From Chloroflexota bacterium (GTDB taxonomy: Bacteria; Chloroflexota; Anaerolineae; Promineifilales; Promineifilaceae), in assembly GCA_008501785.1 (NCBI GenBank), contig QQUD01000488.1, positions 1 through 6,113 on the forward strand: a stretch of 6,113 nt of DNA, in the 5' to 3' direction. A program made the translations under genes and the position numbers. The first letter of the stretch is position 1; every line of letters starts with the position of its first letter. Below are positions 1-6,113 of the stretch, one piece after another. The notes below the pieces were generated by a model that saw only the letters and a list, made by a program, of their open reading frames with translations, was not told where the DNA came from and made no database searches.

Positions 1-662
1 GAAGATGAATCGCCTTCAATATCACTAAAGAATGCATCCACAAAAAAGACGGCATCGTTTTTCAGGAAGGTTTGAAATTGTTCATCGATCCGGTATAGGT
101 TAAAAGTTGCCATGATGTCAATGAAATCGCCCTCAGAAAGGCCGTTTGCAACGCCTTTTAGTCTATCTAAAGGAATGGCGGCGGCAACAAATCCTTGTGG
201 GATGAGGGATGAGGGTCCAAATTCTTTGCGACCAACAAAGGTTGGGTCACGAACTAAGGAGTCTCGCGTTAATGTTTCGCCCTGGAAAATATCGGATCGA
301 GCAAATGTGCCAACGACTTCATCAAAATCTGTGATCACATTGGTCCCAACATCTGCAACGTTACGCCAATCTTTTGTGAGAATATCTTCTGTCATTTCAA
401 AACCACGAGGAACGGTTTGCAATGAAACAACAACCTCAACTAAAGCTGGCGTTTCTGTTGGGGGAGCATCTTCATCAACAACGACTGGTTCCTGCCCTTC
501 TTCAGTTGGCAGCGGGGTTCCTTCCTCGTTTGTAAGGACAGGCGGTGGTTCTGTTGCGGTGGTAGGTTCATCTTGGCTTTGGAAAAAGAAGAGGGCACCA
601 ACGACAATTAATACCAGCGCTGCAAAGACGAATATGATGATTGCGATTGTTCGACTATTCAT
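1..662 (-). CDS. cpaB: Flp/Tad pilus assembly protein CpaB (RcpC), SAF domain; 3' end outside window
   Basis: CpaB/RcpC proteins are periplasmic components of the Flp (Tad) pilus machine, thought to help stabilise or gate the secretin. Reading the minus strand from the ATG at 662-660 gives 220 residues with no stop before the window edge. Residues 5-27 are one hydrophobic membrane anchor (IAIIIFVFAALVLIVV). Residues 28-75 are a Pro/Thr/Glu-rich linker. Residues 76-137 match a SAF domain: VVVSLQTVPRGFEMTEDIL, then VGTFARSDIFQGETLTRDSL, the usual transition from a 'promises to come' strand to a 'G..l.. i..ge.l' loop. From about 153 (IPQGFVAAAIPLDRLKGVA, then GLSEGDFIDIMATF) it matches the RcpC/CpaB domain that follows SAF in this family. 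The N-terminus, anchor and domain order fit CpaB, usually 250-300 residues. Other SAF proteins such as FlgA are less likely, because FlgA has a signal peptide and no RcpC part. No strong Shine-Dalgarno is seen; GAAGAG lies just upstream. Other Tad genes would be expected beyond position 1. Confidence 0.85.
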   Translation of the reverse strand, partial: MNSRTIAIIIFVFAALVLIVVGALFFFQSQDEPTTATEPPPVLTNEEGTPLPTEEGQEPVVVDEDAPPTETPALVEVVVSLQTVPRGFEMTEDILTKDWRNVADVGTNVITDFDEVVGTFARSDIFQGETLTRDSLVRDPTFVGRKEFGPSSLIPQGFVAAAIPLDRLKGVANGLSEGDFIDIMATFNLYRIDEQFQTFLKNDAVFFVDAFFSDIEGDSS

Positions 663-971: not shown

Positions 972-1397
972 TTAGCGTTTTGGATAAGGTGCGTCCGTTA
1001 AAAGTCGCCACCATGCCTGCCAGGGCATGGCTTGCTGGGCGGGGTCTGATGTTGCCACAGGAACGGCCGTTCCCTCTGGCGTCACTTCTATCACCAATGG
1101 CACAACTCGTTTTTCCCCCGGCAAAAGATAGCCCCCTTCATCTCGGGCATAAGCAGCTACATAATCTTCACTTTGTACATATTCCAAGGTGGCTTGCAAT
1201 TCTACCTGTCGTGTTACCTCCATCTCTAGTTCGTTTTCGATGATGGTTTCATCGCCGCCAACTAGTTCACCAGCACGTGCGCGCCGATTTAGGTCGAGTG
1301 CAATAAAGAGTGATGCCAGCACGACCAGGAGTGCAATAATTTGTGGAATGGTCAATAACGGCCGTTGTTGCCACAGTTTCCTATACATAACGCACAC
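972..1397 (-). CDS. FtsB/DivIC-like septum formation initiator protein
   Basis: FtsB/DivIC proteins are small bitopic membrane proteins that link the FtsL-FtsQ (DivIB) subcomplex to septal wall synthesis. This 141-residue protein has a short basic cytoplasmic N-terminus, one membrane helix at about 17-35 (IPQIIALLVVLASLFIAL), and a charged, coiled-coil-like stretch at about 48-75 rich in E, Q and L. The family's characteristic segment follows: DYVAAYARDEGGYLLPGE at 78-95, equivalent to the usual 'yiE..ARe.lg.v.pGE'. A Trp-rich tail (PWQAWWRLL, 125-133) extends beyond the usual domain. The start is uncertain: ATG at 1397 or the in-frame ATG at 1388 (MYRKLW) are both possible, and neither has a clear Shine-Dalgarno. 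It is divergent from the segregation operon across 83 bp. The fold assignment is fairly safe, but an exact FtsB versus DivIC call is not possible. Two AACGGCCGTT palindromes lie in it. Confidence 0.75.
   Translation of the reverse strand: MCVMYRKLWQQRPLLTIPQIIALLVVLASLFIALDLNRRARAGELVGGDETIIENELEMEVTRQVELQATLEYVQSEDYVAAYARDEGGYLLPGEKRVVPLVIEVTPEGTAVPVATSDPAQQAMPWQAWWRLLTDAPYPKR
1062..1071. repeat. Iterated palindrome AACGGCCGTT, exact
   Basis: This exact copy lies in the FtsB-like gene. On the coding (minus) strand it is read as ACG-GCC-GTT (T-A-V) in the C-terminal tail. Confidence 0.8.
1357..1366. repeat. Iterated palindrome AACGGCCGTT, exact
   Basis: This exact copy lies near the N-terminus of the FtsB-like gene, where it is read as CGG-CCG-TTA (R-P-L), a different frame from the copy at 1062. 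Confidence 0.8.
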
Positions 1398-1442
1398 ATC
1401 TTATCGGGGATTAGATTTTGATGCAAAAATGCGTGGCCGCTT

Positions 1443-1471
1443 TCGCAAATTGACTCTGGCTATGCTAGAAT
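1443..1471 (+). promoter_or_regulatory. Extended -10 promoter for the kinase-parAB run; nearly leaderless start
   Basis: TATGCTAGAAT at 1461-1471 contains TG, one base, then the -10 hexamer TAGAAT (5 of 6 consensus). The -35 region at the proper distance (1443-1448, TCGCAA) is weak, as often tolerated with an extended -10. Only nine bases separate the -10 from the ATG at 1481. Transcription would therefore begin about three bases before the start codon, leaving no room for a ribosome binding site, and none is seen. TTGACT at 1450-1455 looks like a -35 but is only 10 nt from this -10. Confidence 0.55.
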
Positions 1472-1480
1472 CACCGCCCT

Positions 1481-2317
1481 ATGGAAGCAATTGATTATTT
1501 GGTAGCAGGCTATGTTACCCGAGACCTCACGCCAACCGGATATAATGTCGGCGGAACGGCCGCTTACTCTGGTCGGATCGCTGATATGTTGGGGTGTCGC
1601 ACTGCCGTTATTACCAGCACCGCACCCAAAGAACCTGGCTTAGAAGCTTTACCGGATACTATACAACTTTACTCGACACCATCTGAAAAAACCTCGACGT
1701 ATGAAAACATCTATACGCCTCAAGGTCGGCGGCAAGTCGTTCACGCAGCCGCTAACAAGATCATGGCTGCTGACTATCCATCCGACTGGCCTGAACCAAC
1801 TATTTTGCATCTAGGGCCAATAGGTAACGAAGTGGATGTTAATTTTGCACACCGCTTTCCAAACAGCGTCATTGGACTAACACCACAGGGATGGATGCGA
1901 CGTTGGGGTGAAGATGGCCACGTTTACTTAGAAGATTGGCCTGACGCTGAGCAGATTTTGCCGTTGGCAACGGCCGTTATTCTCAGTGTAGAAGATTTAT
2001 TAGACGACTCGATGCTCCATCGATACAAGGCGTTAAGTAAATTACTGGTGCTGACCAGCGGTTATGATGGCTGCACAGTTTTCAAAGATGAAGATGTCTA
2101 CCATATTCCTGCCCCTCAAGTAAAAGAAGTTGAACCAACTGGCGCTGGCGATATTTTTGCAACAGCATTTTTGGTAAAATATCAGCAAACCAATGGAGAT
2201 TATCGGGAAGCGGGTCATTTTGCCAATATTGTTGCTTCTCAATCCGTAACGCATGTTGGTTTAGACGCCAAAATCATTAATATCCGAAAACATTTACAAG
2301 AAATTGGGGAATTATAA
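1481..2317 (+). CDS. PfkB-family carbohydrate/nucleoside kinase (ribokinase-like)
   Basis: This family transfers phosphate from ATP to a sugar or nucleoside hydroxyl in the cytoplasm. The 278-residue protein has the N-terminal substrate-side signature GGTAAYSG at 24-31, followed by RIADMLGCRTAVITS, the usual helix and strand of PfkB signature 1. It ends with PTGAGDIFATAFL at 219-231, the PfkB signature 2 that forms the anion hole, with D224 as catalytic base. The first Asp of the common DTGAGD is Pro here; the essential GAGD is intact. LVLTSGYDGCTVF (189-201) is the conserved strand before the nucleotide-binding region. At 278 residues it is shorter than most members (about 300-330), with a reduced middle and lid region, so the substrate cannot be named. 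It is the first gene of the plus-strand run, 9 bp ahead of parA. One AACGGCCGTT palindrome encodes T164-A165-V166. Confidence is high for the family and low for the substrate. Confidence 0.88.
   Translation: MEAIDYLVAGYVTRDLTPTGYNVGGTAAYSGRIADMLGCRTAVITSTAPKEPGLEALPDTIQLYSTPSEKTSTYENIYTPQGRRQVVHAAANKIMAADYPSDWPEPTILHLGPIGNEVDVNFAHRFPNSVIGLTPQGWMRRWGEDGHVYLEDWPDAEQILPLATAVILSVEDLLDDSMLHRYKALSKLLVLTSGYDGCTVFKDEDVYHIPAPQVKEVEPTGAGDIFATAFLVKYQQTNGDYREAGHFANIVASQSVTHVGLDAKIINIRKHLQEIGEL
1969..1978. repeat. Iterated palindrome AACGGCCGTT, exact
   Basis: This exact copy lies in the kinase gene and encodes T164-A165-V166. A one-mismatch copy, AACGGCCGCT, lies at 1555-1564 in the same gene. Confidence 0.8.
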
Positions 2318-2326
2318 AGTGTAGCG

Positions 2327-3127
2327 ATGACAAAAATTTACGCGGTCGCAAACCAAAAAGGTGGCGTTGGCAAAACCACAAGCGTCATCAATATTAGCGC
2401 ATTTTTAGCCAAAAGTGGCCGACGAGTGCTGGTTGTAGATATGGACCCGCAGGCGAATGCAACATCTGGTTTAGGATACAACAAATATGAAGTAGAGAAA
2501 TCTACTTACGACTTATTATTGGAAGAGGCGTCTTTTGATGAGGTACTTGTCAACCAACCCGAGTTTCGCTTAGATATTCTGCCATCACATCCTGAATTGG
2601 CCGGTGCAGAAGTGGAACTGGTAAATGCAATTGGAAGGGAGTATCGGTTGAAGAATGCTTTGGAAGCATTAAACGGCCGTTACGACTACATTCTCATCGA
2701 CTGTCCACCCAGTTTAAGCCTTCTGACCGTCAATGCGCTTACCGCCGCCATTAATGGCATCATCATCCCTGTCCAATGTGAATATTTGGCACTTGAAGGG
2801 CTGACCCAGCTAACACAAAGCATCGAATTGGTGCAAAAATACCTGAATCCAGCTTTAGCTGTACGCGGGTTGGTCATGACCATGTACGACAGCCGCACCA
2901 ATCTCAGCCGTCAGGTTGTAGAAGAAGTCCGCAATTATTTTCCTGGGCGCGTTTTCCGCACGATTGTGCCGCGCAATGTACGCTTGAGTGAAGCGCCGAG
3001 TTTTGGACAACCAATCAGCGCCTATGCGCCGAACTCACCCGGTGGCATTGCTTATAAAGTATTGACGGCCGAAATTCTGAAAAGCGATTTAGCTCAAGAA
3101 GGTGAAACGAAGGGGGTGGCTGCATGA
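2327..3127 (+). CDS. parA: Chromosome partitioning ATPase ParA (Soj)
   Basis: ParA is a deviant Walker ATPase that binds nucleoid DNA as an ATP dimer and is stripped off by ParB, so pulling ParB-bound origins apart. In this 266-residue protein the deviant Walker A motif KGGVGKTT is at 11-18, with signature lysine K11 and catalytic K16. Walker A' VDMDPQAN is at 37-44 (D40) and Walker B ILIDCPPS at 122-129 (D125). The C-terminal half has RTNLSRQVVEEV (190-201) and VPRNVRLSEAPSFGQPI (214-230), conserved in chromosomal ParA/Soj and implicated in DNA binding and dimer contacts. The lack of an N-terminal helix-turn-helix and the short length match chromosomal (type Ib-like) rather than P1-type plasmid ParA. 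The ATG at 2327 has no good Shine-Dalgarno; the nearest purine tract (GGGGA, 2306-2310) is too far upstream, so translation may be coupled to the kinase. It overlaps parB by four bases. MinD is excluded because it would carry a C-terminal amphipathic helix. Confidence 0.96.
   Translation: MTKIYAVANQKGGVGKTTSVINISAFLAKSGRRVLVVDMDPQANATSGLGYNKYEVEKSTYDLLLEEASFDEVLVNQPEFRLDILPSHPELAGAEVELVNAIGREYRLKNALEALNGRYDYILIDCPPSLSLLTVNALTAAINGIIIPVQCEYLALEGLTQLTQSIELVQKYLNPALAVRGLVMTMYDSRTNLSRQVVEEVRNYFPGRVFRTIVPRNVRLSEAPSFGQPISAYAPNSPGGIAYKVLTAEILKSDLAQEGETKGVAA
2672..2681. repeat. Iterated palindrome AACGGCCGTT, exact
   Basis: This exact copy lies in parA and encodes N116-G117-R118, in the loop just before the Walker B strand. 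Confidence 0.8.
3111..3119 (+). promoter_or_regulatory. Strong Shine-Dalgarno for parB
   Basis: AGGGGGTG differs from the full anti-16S complement AGGAGGTG at one base and lies seven bases before the parB ATG, inside the end of parA. It is the best ribosome binding site in the window and contrasts with the kinase, parA and LysM starts, which have none. Confidence 0.7.
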
Positions 3128-4161
3128 GTAAGAAACGAGGGTTGGGACGTGGCTTAGGGGCACTTATTCCTGCTGATGTGAGCAAGGATAAAACACAACA
3201 AACCGGACTGCGCGAAGTGCCGGTACTGTCGATTCAACCCAATCCGCATCAACCTCGCAGCGTGATGGACGACGAGAAGTTGGCGGATTTGGCAGCTTCT
3301 ATTCGTGAGCATGGGCTGATTCAGCCTTTGATTGTGACAGAGAAGAACGGCCGTTACACCCTCATTGCTGGTGAACGACGCTGGCGCGCTTCCCAACTAG
3401 CCAAATTAAAAGTTGTGCCTGTTGTTGTTAAGGAAGCCACACCCCAAGCGATGCTGGAACTCGCCATCATCGAAAACATTCAGCGTGCCGACCTCAATCC
3501 ATTGGAAGAAGCATATGCTTACCAGCAATTAATGGATGATTTTGGACTGACTCAAGAAGATGTCTCTCAACGCGTTGGCAAAGGGCGTTCAACTATTGCC
3601 AATTTAGTTCGATTGATCAAATTGCCTGAGAATATTCAGCAGGCAGTCACAGACGGCATCATCAGCGGTGCCCATGCTCGCGCCTTGCTGCCATTAGAAG
3701 ATGCTGAATTGCAAACGACAGCCATGAATCAAGTTGTGAACATCAGCATGAGCGTGCGCCAAACAGAAACGTTGGTGAAGTTGTATTCACTAAACGTGAT
3801 TCAAGAAATTCGAGATGCCGTTTTACTTGGACGTTTACAATTTGCCCATGCGCAACTATTGGCACAACTGCCAACCCCAGAAATGCAGAAAAATGGGGTA
3901 AAACAAGTTATTGTTCGTGGTCTTTCAGTTATCGAAACTGAATTACTTATTCAACGATTAACAGCCCGTAAAAAACCAGCGTCTAAACCACAAAAAACGC
4001 TGTCTGCTGAAATGGCTGATTTAGAATCTCAATTCCAGAACTCCTTAGGGACAAAAGTCAATATTGAACTGAGCAGTCGGGGTAAAGGTGGCCGGGTTGT
4101 CATTCACTACGAATCAGATGAAGATCTCAACACAATTTATGATGCAATTATTGGCGAATAG
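3124..4161 (+). CDS. parB: Chromosome partitioning protein ParB (Spo0J), with duplicated post-HTH segment
   Basis: ParB binds parS, uses CTP to clamp and slide on DNA, and stimulates ParA ATP hydrolysis. The 345-residue protein starts with the ParA-activating arginine motif (KRGLGRGLGALIP, 4-16). The CTPase (ParB/Srx) domain spans about 31-125: VLSIQPNPHQPR (34-45), GERRWRA (83-89) and ENIQRADLNPLEEA (117-130), all motifs involved in CTP binding. The helix-turn-helix for parS is at about 141-165 (GLTQEDVSQRVGKGRSTIAN). A C-terminal dimerisation domain covers about 294-345. Between them the segment IISGAHARALL...SVRQTETLV (about 171-218) is repeated as RLQFAHAQLL...SVIETELLI (229-276), which explains a length about 60 residues above Bacillus Spo0J. 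The start is fixed by the ATGA overlap with parA and a strong Shine-Dalgarno. I saw no parS site (TGTTTCACGTGAAACA) in the window. Confidence 0.95.
   Translation: MSKKRGLGRGLGALIPADVSKDKTQQTGLREVPVLSIQPNPHQPRSVMDDEKLADLAASIREHGLIQPLIVTEKNGRYTLIAGERRWRASQLAKLKVVPVVVKEATPQAMLELAIIENIQRADLNPLEEAYAYQQLMDDFGLTQEDVSQRVGKGRSTIANLVRLIKLPENIQQAVTDGIISGAHARALLPLEDAELQTTAMNQVVNISMSVRQTETLVKLYSLNVIQEIRDAVLLGRLQFAHAQLLAQLPTPEMQKNGVKQVIVRGLSVIETELLIQRLTARKKPASKPQKTLSAEMADLESQFQNSLGTKVNIELSSRGKGGRVVIHYESDEDLNTIYDAIIGE
3346..3355. repeat. Iterated palindrome AACGGCCGTT, exact
   Basis: This exact copy lies in parB and encodes N75-G76-R77, in the turn before the GERRWRA motif. Confidence 0.8.
3634..3777 (+). 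repeat. ParB internal repeat, unit 1 (residues 171-218)
   Basis: This codes for the normal helical segment after the ParB helix-turn-helix, including SGAHARALL and MSVRQTETLV. It aligns without gaps to unit 2 at an offset of 58 residues, with 18 of 48 positions identical by hand count. Unit 1 carries the family-typical GHAR-like (GAHAR) and VRQTE sequences, so it is likely the ancestral copy in function. Confidence 0.7.
3808..3951 (+). repeat. ParB internal repeat, unit 2 (residues 229-276)
   Basis: This is the second, more diverged copy of the segment: FAHAQLL, PEMQ, QVIVRGLSVIETELLI. The conserved positions are the I, A-V, G, A-H-A, L, E-Q, Q-V, S-V, T-E and L shared with unit 1. It directly precedes the Lys/Pro-rich linker (RKKPASKPQK, 282-291) to the C-terminal domain. 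Confidence 0.7.
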
Positions 4162-4213
4162 GGCTAACACGCCCTGTCATTTCGGTTGAACTGCTTGTGC
4201 CAAATTTTTAAGT

Positions 4214-4217
4214 AGGA
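4214..4217 (+). promoter_or_regulatory. Ribosome binding site that bears on the M24 peptidase start
   Basis: AGGA lies only three bases before the ATG at 4221, nine before the in-frame ATG at 4227 and twelve before the ATG at 4230. The spacing favours 4227 (protein MMKQLV...) over the longest frame; the difference is only two residues. Confidence 0.45.
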
Positions 4218-4220
4218 TGA

Positions 4221-5417
4221 ATGAATATGATGAAACAACTTGTGCAGGAAAAGCTGCAACAAGCCACCATGATCCTCAACGATTTTGATGTTGATCTGTG
4301 GCTAACCTTTGTGCGTGAAACATCGATGCAGCCAGACCCGGCTCTCGATTTAATTGCCGGGGTAGATGTGACGTGGCAGTCAGCTTTTTTGGTGAATCGA
4401 TCTGGCAAACATATCGCCATTATTGGTCACTTCGACAGCGAAAACGTGCATAATCTCAACGCCTATGCACAGGTGATTGGGTATCATGAAGGGATTGGCT
4501 CACATTTGCGTGAGGTTTTAACAGACCTCGATCCGGCACAAATCGCCATCAACTACTCTGAAAATGATGTAGCCGCCGATGGCCTAAGCTTGGGACTCTA
4601 TCGCAGCTTGCTCAAGCATTTGGAAGGCACGCCTTACGCCGAGCGACTTGTTTCTGCTGAAAAAATTATCGGGGCCCTGCGTGGTCGAAAAAGTCCAACT
4701 GAAGTTGAATTGGTGCGGCAAGCGGTTGCCACAACGGAGCAGCTTTTTGACGAAGTGGAAGCATTTGTCAAACCAGGGATGACGCAGCAGCAAATTGCTA
4801 ATTTTGTGCGCGGACGCATTGATGAAATGGGATTGGGATATGCATGGCCGAAGCCATTTAATCCGATTGTGACGTGTGGACCTGATTCTGCTGTGGGTCA
4901 TGCCGCGCCAGGTGATGTGGTTTTGCAAAAAGGGCACACGCTGCACCTCGATTTGGGTATCAAACAAAACGAATATTGTTCCGATATTCAGCGGATGTGG
5001 TATGTGCTGGATGATGGCGAAACGGAAGCCCCATTAGAAGTGCAGCGAGCATTTTCTGTTGTATTGGGAGCGATTCAAGCTGGCGAATCTTATTTGAAAC
5101 CGGGAACACCTGGATGGCAAGTTGACGAAGCGGCTCGTGATTTCATCGTGGACAATGGCTACCCGGAGTATAAACATGCCTTTGGCCATTTGTTGGGACG
5201 GGCAGCGCACGATGGCGCTACTGTTTTGGGACCGCAATGGGAACGGTATGCAGGTATTTGTGAGCTACCGGTGGAAATTGGCAACATTTTTACGCTGGAA
5301 CTGCATGTGGTGGTACCGAAACGCGGCATTATGAGTTTGGAAGAAGATGTACTGGTAACAGAAACAGGAGTAGAATATTTGAGCAGTCCGCAAACGGCGC
5401 TGCGCTATATTCGATAA
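4221..5417 (+). CDS. M24-family metallopeptidase (Xaa-Pro aminopeptidase/prolidase-like)
   Basis: M24 peptidases remove N-terminal residues, often before proline, or split X-Pro dipeptides, using two metal ions in a 'pita-bread' fold. The 398-residue protein has an N-terminal creatinase-like domain (about 1-150) and a catalytic domain from about 160 (SPTEVELVRQAVATTEQLFD). All five expected metal ligands are visible: D244 in LHLDLG, D255 in CSDIQR, H323 in FGHLLG, E360 in FTLELHV and E375 in LEEDVLVTE. H227 (AVGHAAPG) and H330 (RAAHDG) sit where the family has substrate-binding histidines. No signal peptide is seen, so it is probably cytoplasmic. The start may be 4227 rather than 4221 on Shine-Dalgarno spacing. 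It follows parB after 59 bp and precedes the LysM gene by 4 bp. Exact specificity (PepP, PepQ or another) cannot be told; a catalytically inactive M24 homologue is unlikely with every ligand present. Confidence 0.9.
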   Translation: MNMMKQLVQEKLQQATMILNDFDVDLWLTFVRETSMQPDPALDLIAGVDVTWQSAFLVNRSGKHIAIIGHFDSENVHNLNAYAQVIGYHEGIGSHLREVLTDLDPAQIAINYSENDVAADGLSLGLYRSLLKHLEGTPYAERLVSAEKIIGALRGRKSPTEVELVRQAVATTEQLFDEVEAFVKPGMTQQQIANFVRGRIDEMGLGYAWPKPFNPIVTCGPDSAVGHAAPGDVVLQKGHTLHLDLGIKQNEYCSDIQRMWYVLDDGETEAPLEVQRAFSVVLGAIQAGESYLKPGTPGWQVDEAARDFIVDNGYPEYKHAFGHLLGRAAHDGATVLGPQWERYAGICELPVEIGNIFTLELHVVVPKRGIMSLEEDVLVTETGVEYLSSPQTALRYIR

Positions 5418-5421
5418 TTGT

Positions 5422-6113
5422 ATGTTGAATCGTAGGTATTTTTGGTTGGTTTTAATTGTTTTGGCGCTGGTTGGGGTGGAAAACGGCCGTATTCTCGCCC
5501 AAACTCCAGAACCCACACCACCCTCTAATCCAATCCCCCAAGTTCACACCGTCCAGTCCGGTGAAAACCTGACCATCATTGCCCAAAATTATGGCGTGAC
5601 GGTTGCAGAACTGCTGACAATCAATGGGCTAACTGAAGAAGACATACTGTTTGCAGGTCAATCCTTGTTTATTCCTGGTGGTGAGGGTGAAGCAGTGGCA
5701 ACTGTGTACACCGTGCAGATTGGCGACAGTATCGATAGCATAGCAACTGCATTTAACGCCACACCAGCATCAATTTTAGAAGCAAATCGGGCGATAAATG
5801 CCCACTATGAATTCACTGTTGGGCAAACGGTTGCCGTTGTGAGTCGCACAGGGTCAGCATTGCCGCAAGCTGTGACCGGCCAACCGCATGTGGTGGCTCC
5901 CGGCGAGACGTTGAACATGATTGCGGCGCGGTACAATGTGAATCCGATGGCGTTAGCGGCTGAAAATGGACTACCTTATCCATCGATTGTACTGCTGGGA
6001 CAGCGGCTGCGCATACCGGCAGAAATCCCGTATCGATTTTTACCGGGGACGTGGGTGGATGTGCAAATACGGCCGTTACCCATCATCCAAGGCAACACCG
6101 TATCCATTTACGT
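5422..6113 (+). CDS. Secreted triple-LysM protein, probably a cell-wall peptidase; 3' end outside window
   Basis: The frame opens at the ATG at 5422, four bases after the M24 stop, and runs to the window edge without a stop (230 residues). Residues 1-26 are a signal peptide: MLNRRYFW, a hydrophobic core (LVLIVLALVGV), then probable cleavage after ILA before QTP. A short Pro/Thr linker (TPEPTPPSNPIP) follows. Three LysM domains, which bind N-acetylglucosamine in peptidoglycan, lie at about 42-85 (HTVQSGENLTIIAQNYGV ... GQSLFIP), 96-140 (YTVQIGDSIDSIATAF ... GQTVAVV) and 156-199 (HVVAPGETLNMIAARYNV ... GQRLRIP). The segment from about 210 (VDVQIRPLPIIQGNTVSI) resembles the strand-rich region preceding M23 (LytM) endopeptidase domains. 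A LysM-M23 wall hydrolase or its activator is my best guess, but the catalytic part is not in the window. There is no Shine-Dalgarno; translation is probably coupled to the upstream gene. Confidence 0.87.
   Translation, partial: MLNRRYFWLVLIVLALVGVENGRILAQTPEPTPPSNPIPQVHTVQSGENLTIIAQNYGVTVAELLTINGLTEEDILFAGQSLFIPGGEGEAVATVYTVQIGDSIDSIATAFNATPASILEANRAINAHYEFTVGQTVAVVSRTGSALPQAVTGQPHVVAPGETLNMIAARYNVNPMALAAENGLPYPSIVLLGQRLRIPAEIPYRFLPGTWVDVQIRPLPIIQGNTVSIY
5482..5491. repeat. Iterated palindrome, one mismatch (AACGGCCGTA)
   Basis: The 8-bp core ACGGCCGT is intact. It encodes N21-G22-R23 at the end of the LysM protein's signal peptide. Confidence 0.65.
6068..6077. repeat. Iterated palindrome, one mismatch (TACGGCCGTT)
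   Basis: The 8-bp core ACGGCCGT is intact. It is read as CGG-CCG-TTA (R-P-L) in the region after the third LysM domain. Confidence 0.65.

Follow-up and report, generated by a model that had tools for sequence, protein, structure and literature searches.

The closest described systems are the HIP elements of cyanobacteria, exemplified by HIP1 (GCGATCGC), of which Synechococcus elongatus PCC 7942 carries 7402 copies against 60 expected (PMC4390886; PMC3025956). In the portions of these papers drawn on here, an alternate outer pair on the fixed hexamer gives TCGATCGA (PMC4390886), 88% of the HIP sites of Synechocystis 6803 carry a 10-bp extension and one-mismatch HIP forms are common in many cyanobacteria (PMC4390886; PMC3025956), while the model put forward is one of GmeC-directed repair (PMC4390886). 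Other short words invite comparison: the uptake sequences of Neisseria and Haemophilus occur about once per kb and are non-palindromic, and the Chi sites of RecBCD/AddAB are over-represented GC-rich octamers, useful to phages, that are asymmetric and orientation-biased. CGGCCG is the recognition site of the type II R-M enzyme EagI, and both hosts and phages often avoid R-M sites. The motif described here is a HIP-class element outside cyanobacteria. Like HIP1 it is a GC-rich octameric palindrome found in genes at about 1-2 per kb, with one dominant word per genome, but its CGGCCG core and its phylum are unrelated, and GCGATCGC is not among the top palindromic 8-mers. It shares a palindromic six-base core with the EagI site and, unlike R-M sites, is enriched rather than avoided. 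HIP1 raised the question of why some genomes become saturated with a single palindrome, and this is a second, unrelated case. Its many related genomes, several dialects, losses of the motif and phages make it possible to test the methyltransferase (MTase) model and the rival models by comparison.

The window, the whole stretch of 6,113 nt that was analysed, comes from a Chloroflexota lineage close to the GTDB family that includes a Promineifilum MAG. The palindrome is matched there nine times, exactly or with one mismatch, whereas 200 dinucleotide shuffles lead one to expect 0.21 such matches (sd 0.44) and never give more than 2. All nine positions reported in the first-pass annotation (five AACGGCCGTT, two further ACGGCCGT cores and two one-mismatch copies) proved correct (Table 1), and gene calls agree with its claim that the seven ACGGCCGT cores lie in five genes and use all three reading frames. 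These genes encode DivIC/FtsB-like (a PF04977 match below the Pfam cut-off), PfkB-like kinase, ParA, ParB and LysM proteins.

Table 1. Copies of the palindrome in the 6,113-nt window
Copy	Type	Position	Gene	Strand	Frame
AACGGCCGTT	exact	1062..1071	DivIC/FtsB-like, 975-1397	minus	T-A-V
AACGGCCGTT	exact	1357..1366	DivIC/FtsB-like, 975-1397	minus	R-P
AACGGCCGTT	exact	1969..1978	PfkB-like kinase, 1481-2317	plus	T-A-V
AACGGCCGTT	exact	2672..2681	parA, 2327-3127	plus	N-G-R
AACGGCCGTT	exact	3346..3355	parB, 3124-4161	plus	N-G-R
AACGGCCGTA	exact 8-bp core, one flank altered	5482..5491	LysM, 5422-	plus	N-G-R
TACGGCCGTT	exact 8-bp core, one flank altered	6068..6077	LysM	plus	R-P-L
AACGGCCGCT	one mismatch, core ACGGCCGC	1555..1564	PfkB-like kinase		
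AAAGGCCGTT	one mismatch, core AAGGCCGT	137..146			

The genome-wide, lineage-specific and HIP1-like character proposed for the palindrome is borne out among relatives, on which the genome-wide claim and all such counts rest since the window's own genome lies outside the analysed set. Of 52 genomes of one Chloroflexota family, 27 are motif-rich, with ACGGCCGT at about 990-2,100 per Mb, 22 are motif-poor and three intermediate; in four members of the order outside the family the word stands at 43-74 per Mb, or 0.7-1.9 times the reversed word. A 493-kb sample of genome G003 holds 1990 copies (both strands counted) against 73.9 expected under a third-order Markov model, and this 27-fold excess, the huge genome-wide over-representation of a palindromic oligomer that marks the HIP class, disposes of a local chance cluster. 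The ratio drops to 9.2, 2.6 and 1.2 at Markov orders 4, 5 and 6 because there the model already takes in sub-words of the motif itself. In the same sample CGGCCG is flanked by A..T 995 times and by T..A 12 times. Loci were tabulated for 50 of 80 plus the window.

The widespread unit is an 8-mer on the CGGCCG core, and the outer base pair, in some lineages together with a tenth-base extension, constitutes a lineage dialect. Across the family the core occurs with the outer pairs A..T, T..A and G..C. The 10-bp AACGGCCGTT dialect used by the window is dominant in G017 and G018, where 82-84% of sites carry the extension (481 of 2984 8-mers of G017 lack it). The TCGGCCGA dialect takes up 58 of 94 CGGCCG in G015 and 60 of 71 in G034, GCGGCCGC takes up 61 of 71 in G051, and TGCCGGCA is the dialect of G029; apart from ACGGCCGT and TGCCGGCA, dialects were called from a sample of about 40 kb for each genome. 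Other family members have an enriched CGGCCG core alone or no motif. Such outer-pair switching on a fixed hexamer, the lineage-wise replacement of one word by another and the 10-bp extension of some genomes, as in Synechocystis 6803, are all features of HIPs. A ParB tree of 46 of the 52 genomes has 17 open forks and places G029 on a long branch.

Sites are strongly maintained, as the first-pass annotation had supposed. When relatives are compared, identity holds for 83-94% of sites and for 30-48% of all 8-mers, from the lowest pair G003/G014 (64 of 77 sites, against 30%) to the highest G013/G001 (162 of 173, against 48%), these pairs being drawn from overlapping regions of one clade and hence not independent. 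The same codons are also retained better inside motifs than outside them: among conserved residues GCC is kept in 81 of 82 cases against 560 of 711 elsewhere, and CGT in 28 of 33 against 50 of 130. Conservation is mostly limited to the word, although the -3 and +3 bases show a weaker signal of their own (0.92 and 0.91, nearly equal to the word), and sites probably arise by point substitution, not transposition.

With masked background, the motif in G003 exceeds expectation 82-fold (1990 against 24.4), and over-representation drops about 64-fold from no mismatch to one. At half-site positions 2-4 one-mismatch forms number 120 against 171 expected (0.70), so that this genome has no one-mismatch halo at core positions, in contrast to many cyanobacterial HIPs as far as these are covered in the sources cited above. 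Recognition is not strictly all-or-none: at half-site position 1, the outermost base, A>T occurs 117 times against 23.8 (4.9-fold) and A>G 86 times against 51.3 (1.7-fold), which is why the sum of all one-mismatch forms (383 against 299) lies above expectation.

The word is also common to tailed-phage contigs, a difference from HIPs as treated in PMC4390886, whose main text has no word beginning with 'phage'. Its density is 1.7-1.9 per kb in three contigs that encode head or portal proteins and 0.9-3.5 per kb in 18 of 20 hand-picked IMG/VR records (18 taken from a density list, two from outside it). Viral contigs show a one-mismatch excess of 1.3-2.8-fold, which, like the unextended 8-mers of G017, also speaks against strictly all-or-none recognition. 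As a control for selection bias, the same pair search gave, among the matches listed, 13 of 86 dense loci of at least 5 kb for ACGGCCGT against 0 of 95 for TCGGCCGA; it covered 119 of the 120 stretches of one scan and 120 of the other, those below 5 kb being dropped. A sequence comparison of the 20 viral loci with 3.28 Mb of locus DNA gave no match. To judge only from the shared motif, these phages are apparently viruses of the family, and the dialect could help to link phages to uncultured hosts.

The reading that we favour, short of an even chance, is that a near all-or-none preference at each site is imposed on all cellular DNA, most likely through biased repair. A host-encoded activity would recognise the full symmetric word and act on whatever DNA the cell contains, that of phages as well, each site being favoured nearly all or none and independently, in keeping with the Poisson-like spacing. 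Whenever a mutation on a single strand destroyed or created a site, biased repair would settle on the word; loss would then be very slow, and the word would accumulate to the limit that proteins tolerate, some residues even changing. An altered contact of the enzyme with the outer base would shift the dialect. Whether repair or selection acts, a stationary excess of 82-fold corresponds to a scaled preference of about 4.4; site-by-site natural selection of similar strength fits the same statistics as biased repair, and the enzyme is putative. More tentatively still, this activity may constitute an MTase-independent sequence drive, in which an enzyme of the host would create and keep a palindrome of 8-10 bp, nearly all or none, in all DNA replicating in the cell and so write its dialect into chromosome, proteome and phages, a change in outer-base preference switching the dialect of the whole genome.

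It is possible, though we consider it unlikely, that the motif is instead a HIP of the MTase-linked kind, in which part of the word is methylated by an orphan MTase and mismatch repair, guided by the methylation, drives the sequence step by step toward the word; according to the part of PMC4390886 relied on here, cyanobacterial HIPs occur together with MTases that act on a portion of the motif. Among the four families searched, PF01555 has a match, if sometimes a weak one, in every one of the 27 motif-rich genomes, and the four of 52 genomes that it does not match (G004, G023, G030 and G052) are all motif-poor, which leaves room for an MTase. Its best E value is 9.5e-10 to 5e-4 in five of the 27 (G014, G019, G035, G037 and G048), however, and a strong member of any one family, PF00145, PF01555, PF02086 or PF02384, common to all 27 was not found (MAG completeness not given), again a difference from HIPs. 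PF00145 is absent from 13 of the 27 and PF02384 from three (G017, G019 and G048). PF02086 is matched in 25 of 27 motif-rich and 17 of 25 other genomes; among the motif-rich ones it is missing from G017 and G038 and matched only marginally in G013, and it is also strong in the motif-less G022, G023 and G030. DPPY is present in 30 sampled PF02086 proteins, and those with it presumably have GATC specificity; the word contains no GATC. Further, G004 matches none of the four families and yet has an enriched CGGCCG core, and the C-to-T form ATGGCCGT is near expectation (36 against 27.6). A cognate MTase may sit outside the four families, differ between genomes or fall in missing pieces of the MAGs. 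Phosphorothioation by Dnd, which has a GGCC core, was rejected: DndC (TIGR03183) is above its cut-off in only five of the 52 genomes, all motif-rich, and thus not in 22 of the 27.

A functional site under selection at each copy, such as a palindromic signal of the Chi or self-recognition type by which DNA repair is protected or channelled and which is obligatory for phages too, appears less probable again. Strong conservation in all frames agrees with it, as do viral contigs that are as rich as the bacteria and wear dialects (the share of half-sites with A at -1 is 93% in G071, 64% in G069 and 25% in G063). A signal needed once per stretch nevertheless predicts an even spread, whereas spacing is Poisson-like (CV 1.09), with no shortage and even a slight excess of large gaps, and neither an organisational grid nor even spacing was seen on a 306-kb contig. 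The earlier interpretation is supported as to a maintained, lineage-specific, HIP1-like palindrome, while the even spacing that it proposed to check finds no support; it missed the outer-pair switching, the phage contigs and the protein effect. About 15,000 selected sites would also be a heavy load, and the motif is missing from some family members. The word resembles Chi as an over-represented GC-rich octamer, but known Chi sites are not palindromic, and the present word is symmetric and known here from sequence alone.

Spread as a DNA-uptake signal through biased natural transformation of the kind known from Neisseria and Pasteurellaceae is improbable. Uptake sequences are likewise short species-specific words, with a similar density and, as here, a lineage dialect, and their drop from exact to one-mismatch forms is equally steep (82- and 92-fold in the portion of PMC1939737 used). 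According to the same source, though, their one-mismatch forms remain over-represented; those of G003 are so when taken together but not at core positions. Phage structural genes should have no need of an uptake signal, and the word is palindromic and no denser between genes than within them.

A chance cluster, codon bias or a repeat family can be dismissed with near certainty: although T-A-V and G-R frames are frequent among copies, chance and codon bias are ruled out by the window shuffles, codon-permuted genes, codon retention, the 27 of 52 genomes and the Markov excess, and a repeat family by conservation and repetition confined to the word and its weak ±3 signal. On contig C5 of G003 the three frames hold 316, 171 and 72 sites against 59, 13 and 2 in codon-permuted genes, which upholds the earlier view that protein constraint fails to explain the motif; with the Poisson-like spacing, these are dispersed single sites in coding DNA in all frames, as in the HIP class. 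The proteome itself bears the imprint of the word. T-A-V, the most over-represented tripeptide in the proteome sample, occurs 539 times in G003 against 71.7 expected (7.5-fold), 520 of the 539 being written with the motif, which points to a DNA-level force strong enough to reshape proteins, and the enriched tripeptide differs according to dialect.

The 8-bp palindrome ACGGCCGT, built on a CGGCCG core, and its 10-bp extended form AACGGCCGTT recur through the window, where matches with at most one mismatch number nine against 0.21 expected from dinucleotide shuffles. Every coordinate that the first-pass annotation gave for these copies is right, and its gene calls are backed by Pfam.

Sites and genes of the window, and loci referred to in the text
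Feature	Location	Detail
AACGGCCGTT, exact copies	window 1062, 1357, 1969, 2672, 3346	n=5
Further ACGGCCGT cores	inside window 5482-5491 and 6068-6077	n=2
One-mismatch copies	window 137 and 1555	n=2
Genes by Pfam	window	PfkB kinase, ParA, ParB, M24 peptidase, LysM
DivIC/FtsB-like protein	window	Pfam match under its cut-off
Repeat stretch	L108:1225-1294 (G003:C5:161225-161294)	~70 bp
Loci behind GCCGGC counts	L224, L458 (G016); L221, L455 (G051); L226, L470 (G055)	
Further loci behind GCCGGC counts	L223, L457 (G056); L469 (G057)	
Carriers of ~330-residue PF01555 methyltransferase	G036:C68, G013:C289, G012:C83, G025:C26, G018:C872, others	
PAPS-reductase-like protein	L330:12027-13187 (viral record G063)	phrog_12882, E 2e-126

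The window ParB shares 91-92% of its residues with two proteins and 71-72% with a Chloroflexi MAG protein. In a ParB tree taking in 46 of the 52 genomes of the family, the window groups with its three nearest proteins in a supported clade inside the larger part of the tree, on which the ACGGCCGT label needs six changes. A genome scan brought up as relatives the MAGs CFX4 (16 copies of ACGGCCGT over 11.5 kb) and BJ8 (44 over 20.9 kb), the latter sharing a GTDB family with a Promineifilum MAG. Counted whole, CFX4 (G001) holds 13,708 copies in 6.9 Mb and BJ8 (G003) 15,031 in 7.2 Mb, against 192 and 130 of the reversed word. With genome sizes rounded, 27 of the 52 family genomes carry 990-2,100 copies per Mb, three (G016, G020, G055) are intermediate at about 420-510, and 22 lie below about 180. 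Counts are 43-74 per Mb in the order's four genomes beyond the family, which is 0.7-1.9 times those of the reversed word, and 9-39 in six further Chloroflexota genomes, where they about equal the reversed word or lie under it. The genome-wide excess over Markov expectation that had been proposed is borne out in these relatives: in 493 kb of G003 the ratio is 27 at order 3, twice that of the next octamer, falling to 9.2, 2.6 and 1.2 at orders 4, 5 and 6 because these models take in sub-words of ACGGCCGT itself. Once the motif is masked out of the background, the count over both strands in G003 is 1990 against 24.4 expected. Separately, one ~70-bp stretch of G003 accounts, on both strands, for most of the listed short matches in G001, G012, G013 and G014, each of which has 67-87 matches in all; it appears to be a dispersed, imperfectly palindromic REP/MITE-like family of the same clade.

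The word is written in dialects, that is, with a lineage's favoured outer base pair and in some lineages a tenth-base extension. Cores are extended to AACGGCCGTT in 2503 of 2984 cases in G017 and 5060 of 6147 in G018, and in just 780 of 15,031 in G003. Since A stands at -1 in 86% of half-sites in the window (12/14), against 87% in G017 and 21% in G003, the window belongs to the 10-bp dialect; half-sites in G003 (loci L003, L081-L090 and L101-L115) have G in 50% at -3 and C in 41% at -1, a preference in which codon effects may play a part. Some ACGGCCGT-poor genomes are instead rich in a sister word: in samples of 7-41 kb, TCGGCCGA makes up 58 of 94 CGGCCG in G015 and 60 of 71 in G034, and GCGGCCGC 61 of 71 in G051, while TGCCGGCA reaches 3665 copies in the whole genome of G029. 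Samples of the same size show bare CGGCCG enriched 4-7 fold, and only slightly biased in its outer pair, in G004, G016, G055, G056 and G057, 1.3-2.3 fold in G002, G041, G043, G044, G046 and G047, and at 0.8-1.3 times expectation in G022, G023 and G030. Genomes enriched for CGGCCG strongly avoid GCCGGC (no copy against 30 expected in G016 and 28 in G051, expectations that the motif inflates); G029 shows the opposite, with CGGCCG at 3 against a similarly inflated 24 and TGCCGGCA enriched.

Alignments of G003, G013, G014 and G001 (83-88% identity, 11-37 kb per pair) show ACGGCCGT identical in 83-94% of comparisons, against 30-48% of all 8-mers and 31-50% of G+C-matched 8-mers; shared sites were counted from both sides, so that G003 and G013, for example, share 50 of 62. 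Over the eight word positions pooled identity is 0.92-0.96; it drops to 0.78-0.79 at the two adjoining bases and rises again at -3 (0.92) and +3 (0.91), half of the half-sites having G at -3. Codons at conserved residues are likewise kept more often inside motifs than outside: GCC in 81/82 against 560/711, ACG in 74/77 against 185/302 and CGT in 28/33 against 50/130. Intermediate forms of the word are rare. One-mismatch copies at half-site positions 2-4 in G003 number 120 against 171 expected. The outermost base tolerates more change, with 117 A>T copies (23.8 expected) and 86 A>G copies (51.3 expected), which lifts the total of one-mismatch copies to 383 against 299.

Protein constraint does not account for the copies, as the first-pass annotation had argued: on a 306-kb contig of G003 (G003:C5), whose 617 sites have a density of 2.06 per kb within long ORFs and 1.58 outside them, the three frames hold 316, 171 and 72, against 59, 13 and 2 when synonymous codons are permuted within genes. 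The influence runs the other way. T-A-V, the top over-represented tripeptide in samples of G003, G014 and G017, occurs in G003 at 7.5 times the amino-acid expectation, against 1.1 times in non-motif relatives, and is written as ACGGCCGT in 520/539 cases in G003, 163/168 in G014, 7/20 in G002/G041/G043, 2/12 in four motif-less family genomes and 0/11 in five outgroup loci. T-A-V in any other spelling falls short of expectation (19 against 71.7 in G003, 7 against 10.5 in G017), and the DNA word therefore shapes protein sequence. S-A-D and S-A-E taken together are raised in the TCGGCCGA genomes (summed counts of 37 against 8.4 and of 28 against 6.8), and A-A-A in the GCGGCCGC genome (34 against 9.2), although A-A-A is up 1.4-2.1 fold in the other sets too. 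Even spacing, also raised earlier, does not hold on G003:C5, where the gap coefficient of variation is 1.09 and 0.8% of gaps exceed 3 kb against 0.2% expected; there is no grid and large gaps are not avoided, which counts against a role requiring even coverage.

The parallel that had been drawn with HIP1 of cyanobacteria stands, to the extent of the excerpted text of PMC4390886: there too one octamer characterizes each genome, with outer-pair variants and 10-bp extensions. We file the motif as the same kind of thing as HIP1 and its alternates, in a new variant form. In the open-access literature searched, ACGGCCGT appears as a whole word in a single paper, about DNA encryption, and AACGGCCGTT in four, none of which, by title and abstract, deals with genome-wide repeats and one of which is about the DNA-binding sites of a Thermus regulator; among the matches listed, no report of the Chloroflexota motif came up under highly iterated palindromes, palindromes, Chloroflexi or the family names.

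The word is also present on viral DNA. Scanning IMG/VR for two cores no more than 30 bp apart gave records of very high density among the matches listed; of 20 records counted whole, the 18 picked from this density list carry 0.9-3.5 cores per kb (one has 227 copies over 65.5 kb), and two from outside it carry 2 and 4 copies. We take G069 (terminase, portal, head morphogenesis, major head/protease and tape measure genes), G070 (head protease/major head protein) and G071 (portal, head protease) to be tailed phages or prophages because of these genes; G063 and G064 have matches to FtsK-like, endolysin or transglycosylase families and may be mobile elements of another kind. Pieces of G069 hold 49 copies against 1.0 expected in 27.5 kb, and one-mismatch copies stand at 1.3-2.8 times expectation in eight viral sets. 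The viruses differ in dialect as well: the share of half-sites with A at -1 is 93% for G071, 64% for G069 and 25% for G063. From the shared word we infer that these viruses infect this Chloroflexota family. A control search with TCGGCCGA under the same rule gave no dense loci among the matches listed; the viral contig L565, which has 0.99 TCGGCCGA per kb at 52% GC (11 copies, where the next palindrome has 2), may be a phage whose host uses the TCGGCCGA dialect. G063, the densest motif-bearing viral record counted, encodes a PAPS-reductase-like protein possibly linked to DNA modification.

Any mechanism has to explain that sites behave independently of one another, that the core is recognised almost all or none, that the outer base changes symmetrically, that phage DNA carries the word, that the effect is strong enough to alter proteins and that no strong methyltransferase (MTase) family is shared. 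Since it fits all of these, we tentatively prefer a host activity that would recognise the complete word and bias repair toward it, a reading we rate at somewhat less than even odds. Per-site selection for a functional signal may be at work instead, and would reach the same equilibrium as biased repair at a scaled preference of about ln 82 = 4.4.

Each cyanobacterial HIP genome reportedly has an MTase for part of its word (excerpts of PMC4390886). Four MTase Pfams (METHYLTRANSFERASES: PF00145, PF01555, PF02086 and PF02384) were profiled over the 52 family genomes, and every motif-rich genome has some match. PF00145 is unmatched in 28, including 13 of the 27 motif-rich genomes. All 27 have a PF01555 match at E <=0.001, and the four genomes that lack one (G004, G023, G030 and G052) are motif-poor; its best E is weak (9.5e-10 to 5e-4) in five of the 27 (G014, G019, G035, G037, G048), and thus no strong common orthologue is seen among the matches listed. 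PF02086 (Dam/DpnM-like), near-universal with and without the motif, is matched in 42 of 52, motif-free genomes included, and unmatched in G017 and G038; the 30 sampled proteins (L181-L210) all carry DPPY and form two clusters and one single. PF02384 is unmatched in G017, G019 and G048, and the core-enriched G004 matches none of the four. To judge from these profiles, none of the four families clearly accounts for the motif on its own; an MTase of some family beyond these four, a PF01555 enzyme of divergent sequence, or MTases that vary from genome to genome may do so. A DNA uptake signal fits less well than biased repair by the host, for although uptake sequences fall equally steeply from no mismatch to one (82- to 92-fold), their one-mismatch forms stay over-represented (both in extracts of PMC1939737), and sharing by phages is not expected of them.

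Two further observations concern DNA modification in the family. Many of its genomes, whether rich or poor in the motif, encode a PF01555 MTase, perhaps a single orthologue, in a ~330-residue open frame (E ~1e-44 to 1e-53). Predicted DNA phosphorothioation systems are scattered, with DndC over its NCBIfam cut-off in five of the 52 genomes (G011, G024, G025, G032 and G036).
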